Part shown: one piece after another, positions 27,026-62,298 of the stretch | Layout of the letters: each line of letters opens with the position of its first letter | Position numbering within the stretch: the stretch's first letter is position 1 | Assembly (NCBI GenBank): GCA_020629965.1 | Contig: JAHDCG010000001.1 | Location: forward strand, 84,802-148,801 | Origin: Saprospiraceae bacterium | Lineage (GTDB): Bacteria; Bacteroidota; Bacteroidia; Chitinophagales; Saprospiraceae | Length of the DNA stretch: 64,000 nucleotides | Direction: 5' to 3' | Notes under the pieces: generated by a model | Database searches by the model: none | Told to the model about the DNA's origin: nothing | Seen by the model: only the letters and a program-made list of their open reading frames with translations | Translations under genes and position numbers: made by a program

Positions 27026-27058
27026 TTGAGAGTGAAGAGTAGCGAGTGAAGAATAGCG
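27024..27058. repeat. Heptamer array (AGTGAAG-type) after the 24716 gene
   Basis: Five 7-base units, AGTTGAG, AGTGAAG, AGTAGCG, AGTGAAG, AATAGCG, begin inside the stop codon of the gene. Confidence 0.8.
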
Positions 27059-27086: not shown

Positions 27087-27178
27087 AGCACAGCCCGTCC
27101 ACCGTCCACCGTAAAACCGTCCACCGTCCACCGTTTCAGCACAGCCCGTCCACCGTCCACCGTAAAACCGTCCACCGT
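27087..27178. repeat. Two 41-base copies of a CCGTCCA heptamer block
   Basis: 27087-27127 and 27138-27178 are identical over 41 bases (offset 51). Each contains the order CCGTCCA, CCGTCCA, CCGTAAAA, CCGTCCA. It ends two bases before the stop codon of the minus-strand aldehyde dehydrogenase. Confidence 0.95.
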
Positions 27179-27179
27179 A

Positions 27180-28634
27180 TCAATACTTCACACAGACATT
27201 TTTGGCTTCGGTAAAAAAGCGCAATGCTTCCAAACCGCCTTCGCGCCCGACACCCGAATTTTTCACTCCGCCGAAAGGCGTGCGCAAATCGCGCAGCATC
27301 CAGCAGTTGACCCACACGATGCCCGATTGTAGTTTTTCGGCGACGCGGTGTGCGCGGGAAATATCCTGCGTCCAGACCGTCGCCGCCAGACCGTAGTCGA
27401 TGTCATTGGCGAGTGCAATCGCTTCTTCTTCCGTGTCGAAAGGCTGCAAAGTCACCACCGGTCCGAAAATTTCCTCCTGGTTGGTGCGGCAGTTATTGGA
27501 TAAACCCTCGATAACCGCAGGACGCAAAAACGCGCCGCCTTCGTACTCGCCCGGCACCTCGACCTCCGTGCCGCCGCAAAGAATCGTACCGCCTTCGACC
27601 TCCGCGAGCTGCAGATAGCTTTGCACTTTTTCTTTGTGTGCCTGCGAAGATAATGCGCCCAAATCCGTGACGGCGGAGAAAGGGTCGCCGACTTTCAAAA
27701 ATTGTGTGCGCTTCACAAATTCATCGCGGAATTTTTCGTAAATCGACCGCTCGATGTAGATGCGCGAACCGCAAAGACAGATTTGTCCGTTATTGGAAAA
27801 AGAAGATTTGAGCGTCGTGACCATGGTTTTTTCAAAATCACAATCCGCAAAAATCAAGTTCGGATTTTTGCCGCCCAACTCCAAAGAGAGCTTTTTAAAC
27901 ATCGGTGCCGCCGTCGCCGCAATGCGTTTGCCCGTCGAGGTGCCGCCCGTAAAAGAAACCGCTTTAATTTTCGGATGCTCGACGATGGCCTGTCCCGCTT
28001 TTTGTCCGTAGCCGTGCACGATGTTGAGTACACCCGCCGGCAGTCCGGCTTCCATGCAGGCTTTGGACAGCAGATAGGCGGTCATCGGGGTAACTTCCGA
28101 AGGCTTGGCGACGACGCAGTTGCCGGTGGCGAGCGCGGGAGCAATTTTCCAAGAGAAAAGATAGAGCGGTAAATTCCACGGCGAAATGCAACCGACCACG
28201 CCGACGGGTTGCCGCAAAGTAAAGTTTATCGCCTCCCCCGGTACGTGGTGCGACTCCGAACTAAAGTGCGTAATTGCCGTTGCAAAAAACCGAAAATTCG
28301 CCTGACTGCGCGGAATATCGACGGTACTCGCCAACGAAAACGGCTTGCCGCTGTCGATACTTTCGGCGCGGGCGAGCGGCTCGGTGTATTGCTCGATGAT
28401 GTCTGCCAAGCGACTCAAAATACGGTAGCGTTTTTCGGTCGTCATGCCCGACCAAAGCGGAAAAGCACGCTCGGCGGCTTCGTAGGCTTTTTGCACATCG
28501 CTCGCCTCGGAGTCGGGAATGTGCGCATAGACCTTGCCCGTAGCGGGGTTGACATTGTCGAAATAAGCACCCGAGTCGGCGGGTACGAGTTTGCCGTCGA
28601 TGTAATTTTTGATGTATTTATCCGGAGAAAGCAT
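27180..28634 (-). CDS. Aldehyde dehydrogenase, ALDH8A1 / 2-aminomuconic semialdehyde dehydrogenase type
   Basis: A 484-residue full-length ALDH. It shows the NAD site FTGGTSTGKRI, the general base Glu in LELGGKNP (near 251), the catalytic Cys in NNGQICLCGSRI (near 285) and the C-terminal PFGGVKNSGVGREGG. Family-specific stretches NFRFFA, ISPWNLPLYLFSWKIAPA and HRVAEKLQSGIVWVNCW strongly resemble ALDH8A1, which oxidises 2-aminomuconic semialdehyde in kynurenine/tryptophan catabolism. No other kynurenine genes lie within the window, so the pathway assignment is inferred. Related hydroxymuconic semialdehyde dehydrogenases are an alternative. Cytoplasmic. Confidence 0.88.
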   Translation of the reverse strand: MLSPDKYIKNYIDGKLVPADSGAYFDNVNPATGKVYAHIPDSEASDVQKAYEAAERAFPLWSGMTTEKRYRILSRLADIIEQYTEPLARAESIDSGKPFSLASTVDIPRSQANFRFFATAITHFSSESHHVPGEAINFTLRQPVGVVGCISPWNLPLYLFSWKIAPALATGNCVVAKPSEVTPMTAYLLSKACMEAGLPAGVLNIVHGYGQKAGQAIVEHPKIKAVSFTGGTSTGKRIAATAAPMFKKLSLELGGKNPNLIFADCDFEKTMVTTLKSSFSNNGQICLCGSRIYIERSIYEKFRDEFVKRTQFLKVGDPFSAVTDLGALSSQAHKEKVQSYLQLAEVEGGTILCGGTEVEVPGEYEGGAFLRPAVIEGLSNNCRTNQEEIFGPVVTLQPFDTEEEAIALANDIDYGLAATVWTQDISRAHRVAEKLQSGIVWVNCWMLRDLRTPFGGVKNSGVGREGGLEALRFFTEAKNVCVKY

Positions 28635-28710: not shown

Positions 28711-28781
28711 TAGTTTAAGTTTTTAGTTGTTTAGCTGTGAGGCTTGTTCTAAACGCCTAAACCTACTAAACTCTTAAACAA
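28711..28781. repeat. Inverted octamer array (NNGTTTAG)
   Basis: Left arm TAGTTTAA, GTTTTTAG, TTGTTTAG (from 28711). Right arm CTAAACGC, CTAAACCT, CTAAACTC, TTAAACAA (28749-28781). 28766-28781 is the exact reverse complement of 58456-58471 (16 bases). It lies upstream of the aldehyde dehydrogenase. Confidence 0.85.
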
Positions 28782-28973: not shown

Positions 28974-29048
28974 GGGCAATTAGCTCAGTTGGTTCAGAGC
29001 ACCTCGTTTACACCGAGGGGGTCGGAGGTTCGAATCCTTCATTGCCCA
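28974..29048 (+). tRNA. tRNA-Val (anticodon TAC)
   Basis: A 75-base cloverleaf: acceptor GGGCAAT / ATTGCCC, D-arm GCTC...GAGC, anticodon stem CCTCG / CGAGG with loop TTTACAC giving anticodon TAC, and T-arm GGAGG TTCGAAT CCTTC. The CCA end is not encoded. It has its own promoter and terminator. Confidence 0.95.
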
Positions 29049-37650: not shown

Positions 37651-37784
37651 CCCGGCATTATCATACCATGAGCGGCGAACCGGATTGGGAGATGCCATGC
37701 CGTTGGTATTAAAATGTGTAGCTCGGCACTTTCTCCCACCCGGCACTTACGTGCCGGGCTGAAGTGTTTCGTGCCGTTGGCACT
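37651..37784. repeat. REP-like repeat, two tandem copies
   Basis: Copy A (37651-37710) and the second half of copy B (37751-37784) each end in a GCCGTTGG motif. Copy B contains GCCGGGCTGAAGTGTTTCGT, which matches the reverse complement of 49187-49247 at 28 of 30 bases. Copy A matches that element over about 60 bases with roughly a dozen differences. GC-rich, hairpin-forming, no open frame. Confidence 0.85.
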
Positions 37785-41575: not shown

Positions 41576-43834
41576 TTGCAAAAAATCCTCGGCATTAGAC
41601 ACCACGGCCCCGGCAGCGCGAAAGCACTCAAACGCGCCCTCGCCGCCCTGCAGCCCGACTGCATCCTCATCGAAGCGCCCGCCGATGCCGAAAAATTGAT
41701 TCCTTATGTGGAAAATAAGAAACTGAAACCGCCCGTCGCCATGCTCGTTTATGCCGATAAAAATCTGCGGCAGGCGGCTTATGTGCCTTTTGCCGATTTT
41801 TCGCCGGAGTGGCAGGCGATGAAATACGGATTGAAAAACGAGGTGCCGTTGCGCTTCATGGACTTACCGATGGATATGACCTTCGGTCTCGATGCCGCCG
41901 CCGAGGCTGCCGTACAAACCGCCTTAGACATCAGCGAAAAACCTACAGCGGAAGACGAAAATTTTCGGCGCGACCCGATGAAACATTTGGCACAAATCGC
42001 GGGCTATACCGACAGCGAACGGTGGTGGGAAATTATGTTTGAGCAGCCCGATAACGAAGTCGAAGTTTTTGATGCCGTTCTCGAAATGAACACCGCCCTC
42101 CGCGCCGAGGTCAAGCAGGAACAGCCGCGCACTCTGCTGCGCGAGGCGTACATGCGAAAAATTATGCGCAAAGCGGTCAAAGACGGTTTTGAAAAAATCG
42201 CGGTGGTCTGCGGGGCTTGGCACGCGCCGGCTTTGCACGATTTAAAAAGCTACAAACAAAGCGCGGACAATGCGCTGCTGAAGGGCATCAAAAAGATAAA
42301 AACGCAGGCAACCTGGATTCCGTGGTCGTACAATCGACTGACTTTTCAAAGCGGCTATATGGCGGGCGTCAACTCGCCGGCTTGGTATGAATTGCTGTAC
42401 AAAGAGCGCAACGAGGCGACCATTCGCTGGATGGTGCGCGCCGCCCGTTTGCTGCGCGGACAAAATCAGGCGGCATCTTCGGCGCACGCGATTGAAGCGA
42501 CGCGCTTGGCGGAAACTTTGGCGCGGATGCGCGGCTTGTCGCTGCCCGGCATCGACGATATGCACGAGGCGGCAACGGCAATTTTCGGCGAAGGCGATGA
42601 TTTGAAAATTCGTTTGATAAAAGAAAAACTCATCGTCGGTGATGTGTTGGGGAAGGTGCCGCCGGAAATTCCCGTCATTCCGCTGCAAAAGGATTTGGAA
42701 AAACAAATCAAAACCGCCCGCCTGACCGCCTACCGCAAGTCTTCGGAAGAACTGTGGCTTAAAGCCACCGCCGCCAACAAACGCGGCGGACTCGACCTGC
42801 GCAACGACAACGACTTGCTGAAAAGTCACCTGCTGCACCGCCTCGATATTCTCGATATTCCGTGGGGAAAACTGCAAAAAGAAACGGGACGCGAACTCAG
42901 CACCTTCAAAGAATACTGGAAACTGAAGTGGAAGCCCGACTTCGCCCTGCGCATCATCGAGGCGGGCATGTGGGGAAATACGGTGCGCGAAGCCGTCGAA
43001 AAATACATTCTTGCCACCGCTGAAAAAGCGGAAAAACTGCCGGAACTGACGCAACTGACCGACCGCGTACTCAAAGCCGCAGTGCCCGAAGTCATTCCGC
43101 CGCTGATAAAATTATTGGAAGAAAAATCCGCCGTGACAACCGACGTTTTGTTATTGGCGGAAGCCCTGCCGCCTTTGGTCAATATCATGCGCTACGGCGA
43201 TGTGCGGGGCACGGAAACGGGTGCGGTGCAGCAGGTCACGGAGCAAATCGTGCCGCGTATCTGCATCGGACTGCCGGCGGCGGTATCGGGTTTGGACGAG
43301 GAAGCGGCGGCGAAAGTTTTCGGGCAAATTATCGCGGTCAATCACGCGCTGAACCTGCTCAACGATGAGGATTTTAACGCACAGTGGCAGCGCTGTCTGC
43401 GACAAATCACGGGAACGGTACGCGCTTTTCCGAGTCTGAAAGGATTGAGTTTGCGTATTCTTTTTGACAAAAACAGCATCGACCCGCAGCAGATGACGAC
43501 GGAGACGCGTTTCGCACTTTCAACGGGGCAAGAAAGCATGGCGGCGGCGCAGTGGCTGGAAGGTTTTCTGTACGGCAGCGGATTGGTCTTGGTGCATCAG
43601 CCGCGTCTGTGGCAGATTCTGGATGAGTGGGTGGACGAAATTCGGGAAGAAGATTTTACTGAAATATTACCCGTTTTGCGGCGCACTTTTTCTGCTTTTT
43701 CGGTGCACGAGCGCGAGGAAATAATGCGCATGGCGAAGGGCGGCATTTTGGTAAATGCAGATGAGGATGCTATGGATGAAGAGCGGGCGGCAGCGGTTTT
43801 GCCGACGGTAAGGATGTTGTTGGGGTATGCATAA
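41576..43834 (+). CDS. DUF5682 family protein
   Basis: A 752-residue soluble protein with a TTG start in its best frame (MQKILGIRHHGPGSAKAL). The N-terminal domain (about 1-225, with RHHGPGS, ILIEAPADAEKLIPYV and AVVCGAWHAPAL) has the look of a TraB/ChaN-like hydrolase fold. The remaining part is a long helical region. The whole matches DUF5682, the family to which E. coli YehM-type proteins belong. That family is normally encoded beside a MoxR AAA ATPase, a VWA protein and a SWIM zinc-finger protein. None of these partners is within the window, so this copy is isolated or the cluster has been broken. The biochemical activity is unknown. Confidence 0.75.
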   Translation: MQKILGIRHHGPGSAKALKRALAALQPDCILIEAPADAEKLIPYVENKKLKPPVAMLVYADKNLRQAAYVPFADFSPEWQAMKYGLKNEVPLRFMDLPMDMTFGLDAAAEAAVQTALDISEKPTAEDENFRRDPMKHLAQIAGYTDSERWWEIMFEQPDNEVEVFDAVLEMNTALRAEVKQEQPRTLLREAYMRKIMRKAVKDGFEKIAVVCGAWHAPALHDLKSYKQSADNALLKGIKKIKTQATWIPWSYNRLTFQSGYMAGVNSPAWYELLYKERNEATIRWMVRAARLLRGQNQAASSAHAIEATRLAETLARMRGLSLPGIDDMHEAATAIFGEGDDLKIRLIKEKLIVGDVLGKVPPEIPVIPLQKDLEKQIKTARLTAYRKSSEELWLKATAANKRGGLDLRNDNDLLKSHLLHRLDILDIPWGKLQKETGRELSTFKEYWKLKWKPDFALRIIEAGMWGNTVREAVEKYILATAEKAEKLPELTQLTDRVLKAAVPEVIPPLIKLLEEKSAVTTDVLLLAEALPPLVNIMRYGDVRGTETGAVQQVTEQIVPRICIGLPAAVSGLDEEAAAKVFGQIIAVNHALNLLNDEDFNAQWQRCLRQITGTVRAFPSLKGLSLRILFDKNSIDPQQMTTETRFALSTGQESMAAAQWLEGFLYGSGLVLVHQPRLWQILDEWVDEIREEDFTEILPVLRRTFSAFSVHEREEIMRMAKGGILVNADEDAMDEERAAAVLPTVRMLLGYA

Positions 43835-43837
43835 AGA

Positions 43838-43938
43838 TTGTTGAATGGTTGAGGTGTTGAATCGTTGAAAAATTCGCGGAACGGCACAACTGCTACGAGG
43901 TGCGCGCTCAACGATTCAACGATTCAACATTTCAACAG
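43838..43938. repeat. Inverted octamer array, four units per arm (NNGTTGAA)
   Basis: Left arm TTGTTGAA, TGGTTGAG, GTGTTGAA, TCGTTGAA (43838-43869). Right arm CTCAACGA, TTCAACGA, TTCAACAT, TTCAACAG (43907-43938). Each arm is exactly 32 bases. It fills the gap between two convergent genes, ending 4 bases from the second stop codon. Confidence 0.95.
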
Positions 43939-43942
43939 AAAA

Positions 43943-44776
43943 TTACAGCTTGAGCATGCGCTCGGCAGCGAAGTAATTTTTACCCGTGATTTGCAGGATG
44001 TACACACCTTTGGCGAGGTCGTTTACTTCTAAAGTACGTCGGTTTTCACCGGTCGTCAGATTGACCGTTTCTGATTTTACAATCTTACCGAAAGCATCCG
44101 TGAGGCTGACGGTGTATGTGCCGTTTTGGCGACCGACGGCATTATATGCCATGGTGCTGCCGACGGGATTCGGAGCGATAGTCAATTGCATTTTGCCTAC
44201 GCCGGGTTCTTGGGTGCTTGAACCCGTATCTTCTTCGACAGCTAAGGGCGTTGCCGTTGCGCCGTTGTCGCCGCCGCTGCCGTTGGCGTTATTTGCCGCT
44301 ACGGTCGAAGAGTAAAAACTCACGCTGCCCGCGCCCGCTGCGGGTGCTGTCCAGGTGACGTTGAAAGTCGGGCTTGACTGCGGTGACTCTTGCTCGACGT
44401 AGCCGCGTCCCGCCAAATCCAAAAGTTTGTAGCCGTCGCCGTCCGTAAAAGAACCGGCTTCCGCGTTGTCTCCCAGCAGAGCCGTTGCCTGAAAGCCGTA
44501 TTCCACGGGGTCGTTGGAAGCGTTGGTGGTTACTTGTAAAGTGTAGGTATCGCCCGGCACGTAAGCTGAGACTGCATTGTTGTTATCGTCCAGCAAAGTC
44601 AATGAAACGGAAGGGCTGAAATTACCGCCGTTGTGACAACCCGTATTGGCGCAAGAGCCGTTGCCGACCGGAGAGCCGGTGCGGTCTTGACCCTGTGCGG
44701 TGCCGGCACCGTTGGAGTTAGAGAGCGCGAAAAATCCCGCTGCGAGGAACATTAAAGGTAAGTAGATTTTTTTCAT
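43943..44776 (-). CDS. Choice-of-anchor V (Reeler-like) protein with T9SS sorting domain
   Basis: A 277-residue secreted protein. The start at 44776 (MKKIYLPLMFLAAGFFALS) gives a standard signal peptide; a longer frame upstream has none. The mature N-terminus carries DRTGSPVGNGSCANTGCHNGG, the CxxxxCH motif of the choice-of-anchor V/Reelin-like domain. A beta-sandwich runs to about 185. A Thr/Ser/Glu linker and a C-terminal T9SS sorting domain (IAPNPVGSTMAYN to ERMLKL) follow. It is exported by the type IX system and may stay on the surface. Its ligand is unknown. The CxxxxCH motif resembles haem-binding sites, but the typical CxxCH is not present. Confidence 0.85.
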   Translation of the reverse strand: MKKIYLPLMFLAAGFFALSNSNGAGTAQGQDRTGSPVGNGSCANTGCHNGGNFSPSVSLTLLDDNNNAVSAYVPGDTYTLQVTTNASNDPVEYGFQATALLGDNAEAGSFTDGDGYKLLDLAGRGYVEQESPQSSPTFNVTWTAPAAGAGSVSFYSSTVAANNANGSGGDNGATATPLAVEEDTGSSTQEPGVGKMQLTIAPNPVGSTMAYNAVGRQNGTYTVSLTDAFGKIVKSETVNLTTGENRRTLEVNDLAKGVYILQITGKNYFAAERMLKL

Positions 44777-44936
44777 ATTTATTTTTTCGACAAAAGTTAA
44801 TAGTGGTGATTTGACTAATGAGACGGTAAGGTAGGGCATTAAGTTTTAATATTTTTACATTCAAATGATAAATAGTGTAAAAAAGTCACGTTGCGTACAT
44901 TCGGTGTCGAAACACGAAATTTTTACAGCACATCAT

Positions 44937-54222: not shown

Positions 54223-54390
54223 GCGGATTTAGCGGATGAGGCGGATTTGTGCGGATTTTTTCTTTTCAATTTGTATTAAAACTCAAAAGAACGAAGACAA
54301 TTTTGATGTAAATAATCAATAACAAAGCAAATATTAAAAAACAAAAAAATCCGCCCCGATCCGCTAAATCCGCCTCATCCGCGTATCCGT
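54223..54390. repeat. Inverted nonamer array (GCGGAT)
   Basis: GCGGAT occurs at 54223, 54232, 54241 and 54251. The inverted ATCCGC series (last copy ATCCGT) starts at 54349, 54359, 54368, 54377 and 54385, a near-regular 8-10-base period. The spacer is about 90 bases and AT-rich. It lies between the M14 and amidohydrolase genes, which have the same orientation. Confidence 0.9.
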
Positions 54391-57451: not shown

Positions 57452-57479
57452 AAAAACGGAAATATACTCATTTTTGCGA

Positions 57480-58391
57480 ATGCTTTTAACACAAAACAGT
57501 CCTTTACAGGAAATTCCTTTAGCGGGCGGACAAATTCGGCTGCTTATTAAGCGCGACGACCTGCTGCACCCTTTCGTTTCGGGTAATAAAATGCGCAAGA
57601 TGAAATATAATTTGCGCGAGATGCGGCGACGCGGGCAAAGTAAAATTTTGACGTTCGGCGGGGCATTTTCCAACCACATCGCCGCCGTTGCCGCTGCGGG
57701 TCGAGCGGAAAATTTTGCGACCGTCGGCATCATTCGCGGGGAGAGACCGGCGGGGCTAAATCCGACTTTGCGCTTTGCGGAGGAATGCGGGATGCAGTTG
57801 CGGTATATTTCGCGCAGCGCATATCGACGTAAAGAAGAGTCGGATTTTTTGGAAAGTTTGCAAAAAGAACACGGTGACTTTTATTTGCTGCCCGAAGGCG
57901 GCACGAATTGCTTCGCTTTGCAAGGTTGCGCGGAAATTATCGAGGAGATAAAAGCGGAAATCATTCCCGATTACTACTGCGTCTGCTGCGGTACGGGCGG
58001 CACGATTGCGGGGATGATACAAGGCGCGGAAGGCAAAAGTGAAATTTTGGGTTTTTCTGCGCTGAAAGGCGATTTTTTAGAAAAAGAAGTAGAAAAACTA
58101 CTGCAAAACTGCGGCAAAAAAAGCTACACTAATTGGTCGATTAATTCCGATTTTCATTGCGGCGGCTACGCCGAATTTACGCCGGAGCTGATTGATTTTA
58201 TCAATAAATTTAAAGCGGAATACGGCATTGCGCTCGACCCGATTTACACGGGAAAAATGTTTTTCGGTATTTTTTCGCTGTTAGAGAAAGGGTATTTTGA
58301 GAAAGGCAGCACGGTCGTTGCGGTACACACGGGCGGCTTGCAGGGCGTGGCGGGATTTAATGAGAGATTTGGGAATATTATCGAGGTTTGA
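57480..58391 (+). CDS. PLP-dependent D-cysteine desulfhydrase / ACC deaminase family
   Basis: A 303-residue fold-type II PLP enzyme. The likely PLP Lys is Lys37 in PFVSGNKMRKM, followed by LTFGGAFSNHIAAVAAAG (substrate and cofactor loop) and CCGTGGTIAGMI (phosphate-binding loop). This is the 1-aminocyclopropane-1-carboxylate deaminase/D-cysteine desulfhydrase family. Reactions of the family are deamination or desulfhydration of D-cysteine or related amino acids. The ATG at 57480 is preferred to the TTG at 57474. Cytoplasmic; it stands alone between two minus-strand genes. Confidence 0.88.
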   Translation: MLLTQNSPLQEIPLAGGQIRLLIKRDDLLHPFVSGNKMRKMKYNLREMRRRGQSKILTFGGAFSNHIAAVAAAGRAENFATVGIIRGERPAGLNPTLRFAEECGMQLRYISRSAYRRKEESDFLESLQKEHGDFYLLPEGGTNCFALQGCAEIIEEIKAEIIPDYYCVCCGTGGTIAGMIQGAEGKSEILGFSALKGDFLEKEVEKLLQNCGKKSYTNWSINSDFHCGGYAEFTPELIDFINKFKAEYGIALDPIYTGKMFFGIFSLLEKGYFEKGSTVVAVHTGGLQGVAGFNERFGNIIEV

Positions 58392-58455: not shown

Positions 58456-58533
58456 TTGTTTAAGAGTTTAGGCGTTTAACCGTTTAGTTGCAGCGAGCGT
58501 CCTAAACAACTAAACGACTAAACCCTTAAACAA
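58456..58533. repeat. Inverted octamer array, four units per arm (NNGTTTAR)
   Basis: Left arm TTGTTTAA, GAGTTTAG, GCGTTTAA, CCGTTTAG (58456-58487). Right arm CTAAACAA, CTAAACGA, CTAAACCC, TTAAACAA (58502-58533). Both arms are exactly 32 bases, as in the array at 43838-43938. It sits between two convergent genes, 5 bases from the second stop. Confidence 0.95.
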
Positions 58534-58538
58534 TATTT

Positions 58539-59960
58539 CTACAAGCCGATTTCGCTCGCTACCATCGTAGCGTAGTTTTGAAAAGCGGAGGTCAGCATTT
58601 TTCGGTAAGCATCGTTTTTCACATTTCTGCTGCCGAAACCGCCGCCGATATTAGAAAAACTGTTGTTCGGACGGCTGTACGTGTTCATTTTAAACCGCTC
58701 GTTTCTTTGCGGCAACGTAAAGTTTACGTTCCAATCAATGCCCGTCGCTAAGAGATAACCAATAAATCTGCCTTCCTGATTGCTGTACTGACCGTTGGTT
58801 TCGGTATGCACATAGAGCGTCGGAAATTCGCCCGACTCGTACTTTTCGGCGAGCGTTTCGATTTTGTAATCGACGCTGATCAACGGTCTTTCCTTCATAT
58901 TTTCAGCATCGCCGACGTTGATTAAATTGACGACTTCAAACGTACCGGGCAGAAAAACGGAATCTAAACGCACTTGAAAAGCTTTGACAATTCCCTGCCG
59001 TCCGTAGGCATCGCTTGCCTGAAAACCTTGCTTAATCGACGGCGGTTTCGACTTCGAAGGCAAAGGATATTTATTCTCGCCGGAAGCATTGGAAAACTCA
59101 ATCATCATATCCACCACGCTGCGTTCTTCCTCGGTGTAATCGCTCCAGTCTTTCAGATTGGTTTCCGAATTAAACGCAATATTTACCGTTCTTTCGCCCG
59201 TTTTTTCGGCATAGTCGAGCAGCGCATTCATATACAGACGAGCCGCCTTGCTGACCTCTTTGTCCTTGACGCGGGCGGCGTAACTATCGCGCAGATTAGA
59301 CCACACTTCGGCCTCGGCAGCGGCGACTTCCCCGCTGTATTTTCCCGTCGGAAAATTTTCTTTGTACGCTTCCAAAGAAGCAAAATCTTTGTATTCGGAG
59401 ACATTGTCCCACAGACAATTTTCAAGAGCGGCACTGTTTTCTTCGATAAAATTTTCTTTGAGTTGTGTCTTCGCTTTTTGCAGTTGCAGACAGGAAGAAA
59501 AACCCGTGCTCGCCTTGCTCGACACGCGGCGTTCGACCGCGTGTGTGTACGCGATGCTGTCCGTGACCCGCGTCGCAAAGGCGCGATACTCCCCGTTCGG
59601 GTAGTCGCGCAGGTAGCGATTCGCCATTGTAGTTGTCGGATTAGCCGCCAGCTCTTCGTAGGCCCGCGTCTCTTTGGTCATCAGGTTATAGGTGATAAAA
59701 CCGACAAGCAGCACCGCCAAACCCGCCATTATGCGTTTAACCAACATGGCTTGGTCGTCTTTTTTTCTTTGGGCTTCGGGGTCATATTTTCTTTGCTGCG
59801 TCGTGCGTGTATTGTTTGCCGTAGCGCGGGGTGTGATGACTCGACCGTTGTTAACCTCGATAATCTGCGGACAGCCCGTACAGTTAAAACGAATGTGACG
59901 GTCAGCGGGTACGCGCATTTTCGTGGCACAATTCGGACAGGAGATAATTGATGTGGACAT
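58539..59960 (-). CDS. Zinc-ribbon membrane-anchored protein of unknown function
   Basis: A 473-residue protein. The N-terminal zinc ribbon (C8-x2-C11 and C27-x2-C30: CPNCATK and CTGCPQ) is followed by a basic Q/R-rich linker. A single membrane helix lies at about 77-95 (MAGLAVLLVGFITYNLM), and a large outside domain follows. This part has TPR/tol-pal-like helices at about 105-270 (AYEELAANPTTTMANRYL, then LEAYKENFPTGKYSGEVAAA). The remaining 200 residues are of unrecognised, probably beta-rich structure. The ribbon is cytoplasmic by the positive-inside rule. A sensor or scaffold function is a guess. Confidence 0.7.
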   Translation of the reverse strand: MSTSIISCPNCATKMRVPADRHIRFNCTGCPQIIEVNNGRVITPRATANNTRTTQQRKYDPEAQRKKDDQAMLVKRIMAGLAVLLVGFITYNLMTKETRAYEELAANPTTTMANRYLRDYPNGEYRAFATRVTDSIAYTHAVERRVSSKASTGFSSCLQLQKAKTQLKENFIEENSAALENCLWDNVSEYKDFASLEAYKENFPTGKYSGEVAAAEAEVWSNLRDSYAARVKDKEVSKAARLYMNALLDYAEKTGERTVNIAFNSETNLKDWSDYTEEERSVVDMMIEFSNASGENKYPLPSKSKPPSIKQGFQASDAYGRQGIVKAFQVRLDSVFLPGTFEVVNLINVGDAENMKERPLISVDYKIETLAEKYESGEFPTLYVHTETNGQYSNQEGRFIGYLLATGIDWNVNFTLPQRNERFKMNTYSRPNNSFSNIGGGFGSRNVKNDAYRKMLTSAFQNYATMVASEIGL

Positions 59961-60002: not shown

Positions 60003-60120
60003 TAAAATAATCGGAGATTTTTAAATTTTCGGACTTTAAAACAGAAATTAAATAAGAAAGTGCTTTTGTTGAGATAAAATTCCTATCAAACTCGATTCCC
60101 GGATATTAGAATGTACTCAC

Positions 60121-60148
60121 CGACAACGGGCAACCGACAACCGACAAC
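60121..60148. repeat. Heptamer array (CGACAAC)4 at the 3' end of ligA
   Basis: CGACAAC, GGGCAAC, CGACAAC, CGACAAC. The last base is part of the ligA stop codon. Confidence 0.92.
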
Positions 60149-62298
60149 TAATTCCCGTCCACCGCCGCAATAAACTCCTCCTCCGTCATAATCTGCACCG
60201 TCCCCAAAGCCGTTGCTTTTTTCAATTTAGAACCCGCCTTCTCGCCCGCCACCAAGATATTGAGATTAGAACTGACCGCGCTGATGTTCTTCGCGCCGGC
60301 GGCTTCCGCCTTTTGTTGCGCGACTTTTCTGCCCATTTTTTGCAGCGTTCCCGTAAATAAAATCGTCTTACCGGAGAAAGGGCCGTCGGTCGTGAGGGCT
60401 TTCGGAATATCGTCGGGCGTTTGTTGCATGTTGACGCCGAGGGCTTCCATTTCTTGCAGCATTTCAACGTTGCGCGGGTCGGCAAACCAAGCGATGACAT
60501 TTTCGGCGACGACGGGACCGACGTCTTTAATATCCGTGAATTTTTCGACCGTCCAATCCTGCAGGTCGAGTACGTGTTTGATTTCCGCCGCAATGAGTGA
60601 CGATACTTTTTTGCCCAAATGATGGACGGCTAAACTGTGCAGCAACCGTTTAATCGGGTTCTTTTTTGCCCTATCTATCGCATCGCGCAGATTATCGACG
60701 GATTTTTTTCCGAAGCCTTTCAGCTCCGCAATTTTGTCATAATCCAAGCGATAAATATCCGCCGTGTTGCGCAGCCAACCGAGTTCGTAAAACTGCTCGA
60801 CCTGCGCCTGTCCCATACCGTCGATGTCCATCGCGGGTTTGGAGACGTGAAAAATCATGCGCTGTAAATCCTGTGCACCGCAGACGCAATGCGGACAACG
60901 CCAAGCCGCTTCCCCCTCTGCCCGGATGAGTTTGACCGGCGTATCGGTATCGTTTATCGGACAATGCTCGGGATATTGCACGGGCTGTTCGCTGCCGTCG
61001 CGCAGGTCTTCCATGGCTTTGACGATGTAGGGAATGACGTCGCCGGCGCGCTCGACCAAGACGGTATCGCCGAGGCGCAGGTCTTTGGAAGTAATAAAAT
61101 CTTCGTTGTGTAGCGACACGGAAGAGACCGTTACACCCGCCAATTGTACGGGCGTAATTTTCGCTACCGGCGTAATCGAGCCGATTTTTCCGACCTGATA
61201 TTCGACTTTTTCGAGGGTGGAGGTCGCTTGTTTTGCTTTAAATTTGTAAGCAATCGCCCACCGCGGGTGGTGACTGGTGTAGCCGACGGTTTCTTGTAGG
61301 GTGCGGTCGTTTACTTTGACGACCATGCCGTCGATTTCGTAAGCGTAGTCTTCACGTGTGGCTTCGCGTTCTTTGCAAAAGGCGGCGACTTCCGCAATGT
61401 TTTTGCAGAGTTTTCTGCCTTTTCCCTCGACGGGAACTTTGAAGCCTAATTTGCCGAGCAGATTGATACTTTCGTTGTGCGAGGTAAATTTTTCCAAAAC
61501 ATTTTCGCCCGCCGCATCGGTCGCGTAGCCGAGTTGATAGATGAAAGCGACGAGTTCGCGCTCGGCGGCTTCTTCCGGGTTTTTCATGCGCAGACCGCCC
61601 GTAGCCGCATTCCGCGGATTGGCGAAAAGAGATTTACCGGCTTTTTCGCGGGCGGCGTTGACGACTTTAAAAATGTCTTTGCGGATTAAAACCTCGCCGC
61701 GCAGTTCCGCTTTTTGCACGCCGTGTTCCGAAAATTTTGCTTGTAAGGGAACGGATTTAATAACGCGGGCATTGCCGGTCATTTCTTCGCCGCGCACACC
61801 GTTACCTCGGGTCGCGCCTCGGGTCAGTCGGTCGTTTTCATAGACCAAAGCGATACTGCCGCCGTCAAATTTTGGCTCGACGACATATTCTACCTCCGCG
61901 TCTGCGTCGAGCAGCGCGAGTTTTTTGATGCGTTGGTCAAATTCACCTAAGTCTTCGGCATTGTAAGAATTATCCAAAGACAGCATCGGGGTCAGGTGTT
62001 CGACGTTGGTACCGGCGTTGCTGAGGTCACTGGTCACCCGCTGCGTCGGGCTGTCGGGCGTTACCAACTCGGGGTAAGCCGCCTCCGCTGCTTCCAGTTT
62101 TTTGAACAGCGTATCGTATTCAAAATCGCTGATGACCGGGTCGTTTTTTACCGCGTACCGCCATTCGTGGTATTGGAGGACGTCGCGCAAATCACGCATG
62201 ACCGGCTCGGCAAACATACGCTCGGGTAACTCTTGCGGTGCGGCGAGTAATTTTTTGGAAAGGTCGAAAAAGGCTTTTTCTTGTGCTGCGGTGTACAT
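60148..62298 (-). CDS. ligA: NAD-dependent DNA ligase LigA
   Basis: A 716-residue bacterial DNA ligase. The Ia domain (HEWRYAVKNDPVISDFEYD) is followed by the adenylation core with the nucleotidyl Lys in VEPKFDGGSIALVYEN (near 142), the OB-fold, a zinc finger, HhH repeats (LKGFGKKSVDNL, DVGPVVAENV) and a C-terminal BRCT domain (FSGKTILFTGTLQKMGRKV). It seals nicks during replication and repair. The zinc finger is odd: the usual first CPxC pair reads CPIN, and the second half is CPHCVC, giving a different set of four Cys. The enzyme should be essential, so this is presumably functional. A heptamer array begins at its stop codon. Confidence 0.97.
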   Translation of the reverse strand: MYTAAQEKAFFDLSKKLLAAPQELPERMFAEPVMRDLRDVLQYHEWRYAVKNDPVISDFEYDTLFKKLEAAEAAYPELVTPDSPTQRVTSDLSNAGTNVEHLTPMLSLDNSYNAEDLGEFDQRIKKLALLDADAEVEYVVEPKFDGGSIALVYENDRLTRGATRGNGVRGEEMTGNARVIKSVPLQAKFSEHGVQKAELRGEVLIRKDIFKVVNAAREKAGKSLFANPRNAATGGLRMKNPEEAAERELVAFIYQLGYATDAAGENVLEKFTSHNESINLLGKLGFKVPVEGKGRKLCKNIAEVAAFCKEREATREDYAYEIDGMVVKVNDRTLQETVGYTSHHPRWAIAYKFKAKQATSTLEKVEYQVGKIGSITPVAKITPVQLAGVTVSSVSLHNEDFITSKDLRLGDTVLVERAGDVIPYIVKAMEDLRDGSEQPVQYPEHCPINDTDTPVKLIRAEGEAAWRCPHCVCGAQDLQRMIFHVSKPAMDIDGMGQAQVEQFYELGWLRNTADIYRLDYDKIAELKGFGKKSVDNLRDAIDRAKKNPIKRLLHSLAVHHLGKKVSSLIAAEIKHVLDLQDWTVEKFTDIKDVGPVVAENVIAWFADPRNVEMLQEMEALGVNMQQTPDDIPKALTTDGPFSGKTILFTGTLQKMGRKVAQQKAEAAGAKNISAVSSNLNILVAGEKAGSKLKKATALGTVQIMTEEEFIAAVDGN

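Follow-up and report, generated by a model that had tools for sequence, protein, structure and literature searches.

The gap between two convergent genes at positions 43838 to 43938 of the window (the whole stretch of 64,000 nucleotides analysed here, C80:84802-148801 of the 6.5-Mb draft genome of a Saprospiraceae bacterium) holds a hairpin whose arms each consist of four octamers. An earlier note on this DNA had regarded such hairpins, filling the gaps between convergent genes, as the unit of a plan that is shared by elements of different sequence. The locus raises the question of whether the hairpin is indeed this unit, and of what the arrays in its arms may do at the ends of genes.

Array elements in the window

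The plan described for the first element was borne out when the sequence was read again, with four GTTGARNN units per arm inverted around a 37-nt spacer (Table 1). The left arm reads GTTGAATG GTTGAGGT GTTGAATC GTTGAA, which amounts to 30 nt, or to the 32 bases given earlier when the preceding TT is included, and the right arm is the reverse complement of GTTGAAAT GTTGAATC GTTGAATC GTTGAG. The first GTTGA unit begins 5 nt past the stop codon of the left gene and the right array ends 6 nt from the opposing stop codon, the element occupying a convergent gap of 108 nt with no other terminator. The spacer opens with CGCG on the minus strand. RNA folding of the two strands gave -44.2 and -44.3 kcal/mol, with z-scores of -6.5 and -8.0 compared to shuffled sequences.

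The element at 58456-58533 has the same plan, with four GTTTARNN octamers per arm and a spacer of 14 nt. The convergent context claimed for both elements was confirmed, but in the second one the left arm lies far from its gene and the stop codon is hugged by the right arm only. The gap of a third pair is bordered by a divergent aldehyde dehydrogenase gene on the left and by a tRNA on the right, the tRNA gene (28974-29048) being located directly right of the pair. Period-7 arrays of other families are also present, and the convergent gap that contains the ACGGTGG arrays bears a GAGAGT-type array at its left border, starting at 27026. The Rfam search gave no match at the array elements. Elsewhere in the window, positions 37739 to 37784 match the Acido-Lenti-1 RNA of Rfam (RF01687) with 52 bits, over the gathering score. 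The ACGGTTG array at positions 1 to 39 is an exact copy of G000:C80:84647-84685, across a run of N, and looks like a scaffolding duplicate of a contig end.

Table 1. Arrays, spacers and neighbouring stop codons in the window
Feature	Position	Strand	Remark
Period-7 arrays, ACGGTGG family	27095..27178	-	Beside stop of 27180-28634
Third pair, left array, three GTTTARNN-like units	28713..28734	+	
Third pair, right array, four GTTTAR-like units	28750..28779	-	
Stop codon (TAA), DUF5682 gene 41576-43834	43832..43834	+	Left gene border
Left border array, four GTTGARNN octamers	43840..43869	+	G-rich strand pointing away from gene
37-nt spacer (core)	43870..43906	.	Diverged copy of constant-length family core
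Right border array, four GTTGARNN octamers	43907..43936	-	Faces left array
Stop codon of opposing gene 43943-44839 (Reeler domain and T9SS sorting tail)	43943..43945	-	
Second element, left array, four GTTTARNN octamers	58458..58487	+	66 nt from PALP-family gene 57474-58391
Second element, 14-nt spacer	58488..58501	.	Minus strand GACGCTCGCTGCAA, outline common to other copies
Second element, right array	58502..58531	-	7 nt from stop of 58539-59960
Period-7 array, CAACCGA units (outward strand TCGGTTG)	60119..60148	-	Beside stop of 60148-62298

Placement and direction of single arrays at gene borders

The arrays were surveyed in 1.40 Mb of the genome, about half of which was picked around known hits, so that genome-wide densities are rough, whereas the survey is firm in its tests of orientation and distance. 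ORFs were called in this sample by hexamer score and 123 copies of the GTTGAR and GTTTAR families were placed relative to them; start codons were assigned by a simple script, which makes distances from starts uncertain and leaves orientation unaffected. Tandem gaps contained 75 copies (58 expected), convergent gaps 21 (18 expected) and divergent gaps 25 (45 expected). Tandem gaps are thus preferred, divergent gaps are avoided and convergent gaps are not enriched.

Within the gaps, 62 of 119 copies are located at most 12 nt from a stop codon, compared to 4.9 expected and to a maximum of 11 in 300 random placements, and the period-7 families hug stop codons likewise. The usual distance from the stop codon is 3 to 9 nt. 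The direction of the arrays is nearly invariant close to genes. At distances of up to 8 nt from a gene border the G-rich strand pointed away from the gene in 136 arrays and towards it in none; the ratio was 95:2 between 9 and 20 nt, 38:3 between 21 and 40 nt, and approximately 1:1 beyond. Up to 20 nt from a border, 231 arrays therefore point away and 2 towards. The rule applies to both gene ends and both periods, with ratios of 70:1 at stops and 68:1 at starts for period 7, and of 46:2 and 22:0, respectively, for period 8. In terms of the transcript, arrays located up to 16 nt past a stop codon have their G-rich strand in sense orientation in every family, with one exception, and those before start codons are all antisense.

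The gap of a border array mostly lacks a partner of its own family, and the orientation of these unpaired arrays is still 144:2. In 28 cases a gap has caps at its two borders, compared to 12.9 expected, and mostly these belong to different families. Since the rule holds without a partner and at both types of border, the hairpin amounts to two facing border arrays. The unit of organisation is the single border array, and the hairpin at 43838 is the special case in which arrays of one family stand at either border of a gap and face each other. The idea of a hairpin filling convergent gaps as the unit of the plan found no support, in view of the preference for tandem gaps, the divergent left gene of the third pair and the arrays without partner.

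Two other ways of accounting for the placement were dropped. Arrays of the same family are not enriched at both ends of one gene, and a bracketing of genes, as in a closed-loop mRNA or a gene cassette, was abandoned for this reason. Periods of 7 and 8 place TGA, TAA or TAG in all frames; however, frame-independent stop codons were discarded as the purpose of the arrays because the ACGGTGG, CAACCGA and CTCTC families contain no stops. The outward strand is also G-skewed in the first 10 nt of those borders of this genome at which no array was detected (stops 0.29, starts 0.36), and in 78 loci of other Bacteroidota the border skew at stops was approximately zero.

Families, unit number and relatives

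Further elements of the kind seen in the window, which the earlier note had suggested searching for, are present by the hundred. Genome-wide, three consecutive GTTGAA-type units matched 223 times and three GTTTAR units 386 times, compared to 0 for either reversed control, and extrapolation from the 1.40-Mb sample would give more than 1000 four-unit arrays in the whole genome. Inverted pairs with a spacer of up to 60 nt and almost perfect arms numbered 20 in the 1.40 Mb, and none was found after Markov shuffling. In a de novo search for periodicity in 0.72 Mb, periods 7, 8 and 14 alone were in strong excess, and 9 and 15 in weak excess. The arrays of the 1.40-Mb sample fall into several unrelated families of period 7 or 8, namely GTTGANNN, GTTTANNN, TTAGANN, TACGANN, GGTTGNN and GAGAGNN, whose units of 7 or 8 nt combine five or six invariant positions with two or three that vary.

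Two observations on longer units and palindromes may be added. A degenerate 9-nt unit of the ATCCGCGTC type is found repeatedly in gaps, both in this genome and in the family-level relative G018 (54347-54382; L208, L210, L211), and none of the 8 intergenic period-9 arrays of G018 hugs a gene border. The gap G000:C6:55774-56096 (L081), which has TTAGA arrays at both ends, contains a mid-gap palindrome, gtagcgtcgattttaatcgac ... gtcgatgctac.

Among arrays of two or more units, four units are commonest in the GTTGA (62/95), TTAGA (36/79), TACGA (21/38) and CGGTTG (36/109) families. For GTTTA (48/141) and GAGAG (16/67) four units form a second peak, two-unit runs being more numerous, and in the ACGGTGG family (22 arrays) the number of units peaks at two. 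A process that holds the unit number, as proposed earlier, is thus in line with the mode of four in most families, whatever their period. Local slippage alone, on the other hand, did not build the GTTGA, GTTTA and TTAGA families, since neighbouring units are no more alike there than units taken from separate arrays (identity of spacer letters 0.10 versus 0.23, 0.11 versus 0.13 and 0.14 versus 0.26, respectively), and in GTTGA and TTAGA they are even less so. In the CGGTTG and GAGAG families neighbouring units are more alike than units across arrays (0.49 versus 0.21 and 0.62 versus 0.15), so that slippage may contribute there. That the arrays are plain slippage products without function is nevertheless hardly credible: they are short tandem repeats, and many bacteria have an excess of heptamers (Mrazek 2007, as cited in PMC4692102), but slippage forecasts neither four units, nor placement at borders, nor the orientation of 231:2.

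The same plan in different sequences, which had been stressed for the two main elements, is real, but GTTGAR and GTTTAR look like related families. The existence of hybrid elements and the same A/G alternation in both suggest that their common plan is partly due to shared descent; the independent cases of the plan are the period-7 families. The paired GTTGAR elements are alike in having a core, now diverged, that is 37 nt long (consensus about CGCGTAAAACTTGAAAGCCGTGCTGTTGCGTGGGGTT), and the GTTTAR elements have one of 14 nt in common. Fixed arm positions are free of mismatches in 8 of 11 elements, an intactness to be read with the caveat that elements were detected via their arms, although with a tolerance of up to nine mismatches, and the cores match the consensus at 13 to 35 of 37 positions with their length kept. 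As the arms are intact while the cores diverge, the arms appear to be the maintained part, and the common core of constant length suggests that the paired GTTGAR elements once spread as units. No element-specific covariation between arms was found in any register in this small sample (11 and 6 elements).

The neighbours of the window in sequence space belong to Saprospiraceae and other Bacteroidota, and some relatives have an equal plan with other units. In the genome of G018, GTTGARNN is matched more than 500 times, the variable letters being different ones; 10 of its 23 intergenic period-8 arrays are located just past a stop codon (1.1 expected), and those near borders are oriented 18:1. In Rufibacter loci (two records), ATGTGNNA arrays are found at both borders of convergent gaps of 450 to 600 nt, and Flavobacterium loci contain a 7-nt array directly past the stop codon. 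The remaining relatives sampled have few arrays or none.

Possible functions and comparison with known systems

The placement, direction and unit number established above, together with the dispersal of the families, suggest that the arrays act at the border, and a pair of border arrays with such a role is the best explanation overall, held with middling confidence. The equal plan in relatives, the G-skew at borders without detected arrays and the placement reported for Xanthomonas and Nostoc speak for it as well. A rather speculative mechanism would be a directional gene boundary of a rut-like or other RNA-binding kind. The direction of an array depends on the way in which a transcript crosses the gene border, outwards or inwards, and not on sense or antisense. 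RNA leaving a gene bears the G-rich version, and RNA entering it from outside, i.e. convergent antisense read-through or its own leader, always bears the C-rich, G-poor version, with a C-rich unit recurring every 7 to 8 nt. The simplest use would be that Rho, or some other factor that binds RNA, loads at this rut-like stretch and halts untranslated transcripts running into the gene, a check that would suit any C-rich unit. Where the same family caps both borders, the long stem would add a strong hairpin to the 3' UTRs of both convergent mRNAs.

Rho utilisation (rut) sites are C-rich, G-poor stretches of RNA, and the composition and orientation of the inward strand are compatible with such sites, a fit that is limited to this strand and to a likeness in composition. 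No evident enrichment of YC dinucleotides beyond the C content was seen by eye, and the Rho reading thus stands on strand composition and position only. The model does not account for the lack of an oppositely oriented Rho site just past the stop codon, where one would be of use as well. The boundary explanation is also countered by the near-zero border skew at stops in other Bacteroidota and by the failure of Rehm et al. 2015 (PMC4692102) to find a regulatory role for comparable repeats in Xanthomonas.

A possible but doubtful alternative is a mobile hairpin akin to MITE or REP elements, which would owe its movement to a Y1/RAYT transposase or to an enzyme since lost and would merely happen to persist in intergenic DNA. 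The cores common to the GTTGAR copies (37 nt) and to the GTTTAR copies (14 nt), both dispersed, agree with it. A single Y1_Tnp (RAYT-like) gene was found in the genome (L109 1360-1995, G000:C153), and target-site duplications are absent at the elements, which suits a Y1 enzyme. However, no period-7/8 arrays flank this gene within about 1 kb (2 kb were read, ending 57 nt past the ORF), and an association with RAYT was rejected because Y1 genes occur in array-rich and array-poor relatives alike and do not separate them. In addition, single arrays without core or partner follow the identical border and orientation rule, families unrelated in sequence are equal in plan, and mere survival would not predict copies 3 to 9 nt past stop codons. 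In the nearest relative, the same-genus genome G001 (65% amino-acid identity), no synteny at the gene was found for an orthologous gap. A mobile origin is likely as far as the spread of the paired elements is concerned, and is compatible with a function.

That the elements are bidirectional intrinsic terminators for convergent genes is unlikely. The hairpin at 43838 is strong, follows directly on stop codons and is alone in its short gap, and in convergent gaps of 60 to 150 nt canonical terminators are rarer when arrays are present (1/20 versus 24/84, p = 0.04). Nevertheless, the stem is preceded by T and followed by A, so that the U-tract of an intrinsic terminator is absent after the stem on either strand. 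Overall, moreover, where space allows, the frequency of canonical terminators is the same whether arrays are present or not (26/139 versus 121/577, p = 0.64), convergent gaps are not enriched for arrays, most arrays are unpaired, and arrays are present before start codons too. The flanking bases, the co-occurrence with terminators and the context of the genes thus led to the rejection of an ordinary terminator.

Still less probable is a pairing in trans, in which the G-rich arrays of 3' UTRs would bind same-family C-rich arrays in the 5' UTRs of other mRNAs, with the family as the address of a network. Since post-stop arrays are sense with a single exception and pre-start arrays all antisense, complementary RNAs exist by construction, but one family is not enriched at both ends of a gene and hundreds of copies per genome would leave the pairing unspecific. 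A G-quadruplex element, as put forward for the heptamers of Xanthomonas and Nostoc, is very improbable as the shared cause. Placement, orientation and the bias for four units match those heptamers (PMC4692102), but among arrays of at least four units, four GG runs were found in 0/58 for GTTGA8, 0/47 for TTAGA7, 0/22 for TACGA7 and 2/42 for GTTTA8, so that most arrays of the main families are unable to form quadruplexes. This refutes the reading for GTTGA, TTAGA and TACGA and nearly so for GTTTA, whereas quadruplexes are possible in the GGTTG, ACGGT and GAGAG families.

Returning to the boundary signal, we tentatively suggest that gene borders may be marked in many bacteria by directional arrays of about four units, in which the unit is free and the number, period (7 to 8 nt), distance and direction are fixed. 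What is read in such a general signal would be the composition of the strand and the geometry of the repeat, neither a specific sequence nor a quadruplex, and the signal could for instance keep untranslated transcripts out of genes. A near-absolute rule (231:2) at both gene ends, common to unrelated sequences and distant phyla, calls for a cause, and quadruplex formation, the sole published proposal found, cannot account for the main families of this genome. The rule would alter views of intergenic repeats, read-through and antisense control in Bacteroidota, and sharp tests of it are feasible in cultivable Rufibacter and Flavobacterium. It also calls for caution, as what is taken for a hairpin element made of inverted arrays may in fact be a pair of independent border modules.

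The literature that was searched contained no paper on such arrays in Saprospiraceae. REP and BIME elements are dispersed intergenic palindromes, often found in 3' regions and avoided in promoters. The paired elements resemble them and their RAYT systems in being dispersed intergenic palindromes, but here the arms are period-7/8 arrays, single arrays obey the rule and no array-flanked RAYT gene was found. The STRR heptamer repeats of cyanobacteria are degenerate heptads in intergenic DNA, and in the cyanobacterial tRNA-Leu intron heptads are located on both sides of a stem. To our knowledge, a border and orientation rule has been described among cyanobacterial heptamers for the G-rich family of Nostoc alone.

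TAACTGA heptamer arrays have been described in Beggiatoaceae, some Cyanobacteria and Bacteroidetes (MacGregor 2015, PMC4679880). Like the arrays described here, they are short, intergenic and adjacent to start codons, and they include Bacteroidetes. Unlike them, they have one unit only, are mostly forward and directly upstream of starts, with one inverted case reported, and are not mainly located at stops.

The closest likeness is to the GGGAATC arrays of Xanthomonas and the GGGGA(C/T)T arrays of Nostoc PCC 7120, whose bias for four units was tied to quadruplex formation (Rehm et al. 2015, PMC4692102); the border-array pattern was previously reported only for these G-rich repeats. Both sets have fixed and variable positions (GGGANTN in theirs), a four-unit bias and a mostly intergenic location, avoid the space between divergent genes and frequently form convergent, inverted pairs. 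The Xanthomonas and Nostoc heptamers are located up to 50 bp after the stop codon on the coding strand or before the start codon on the non-coding strand, as is the case here. In contrast to them, several unrelated families with periods 7 and 8 coexist here in one genome, of the phylum Bacteroidota, their placement is tighter, commonly 3 to 9 nt from the stop codon, some pairs have a core of constant length, and the main families cannot form quadruplexes. The arrays of this genome thus have units of about 7 nt, the four-unit bias with its exceptions, the strand rule, divergent avoidance and inverted pairs, and lack the G-tracts of a quadruplex, which makes them a variant of border-anchored arrays outside the quadruplex class.
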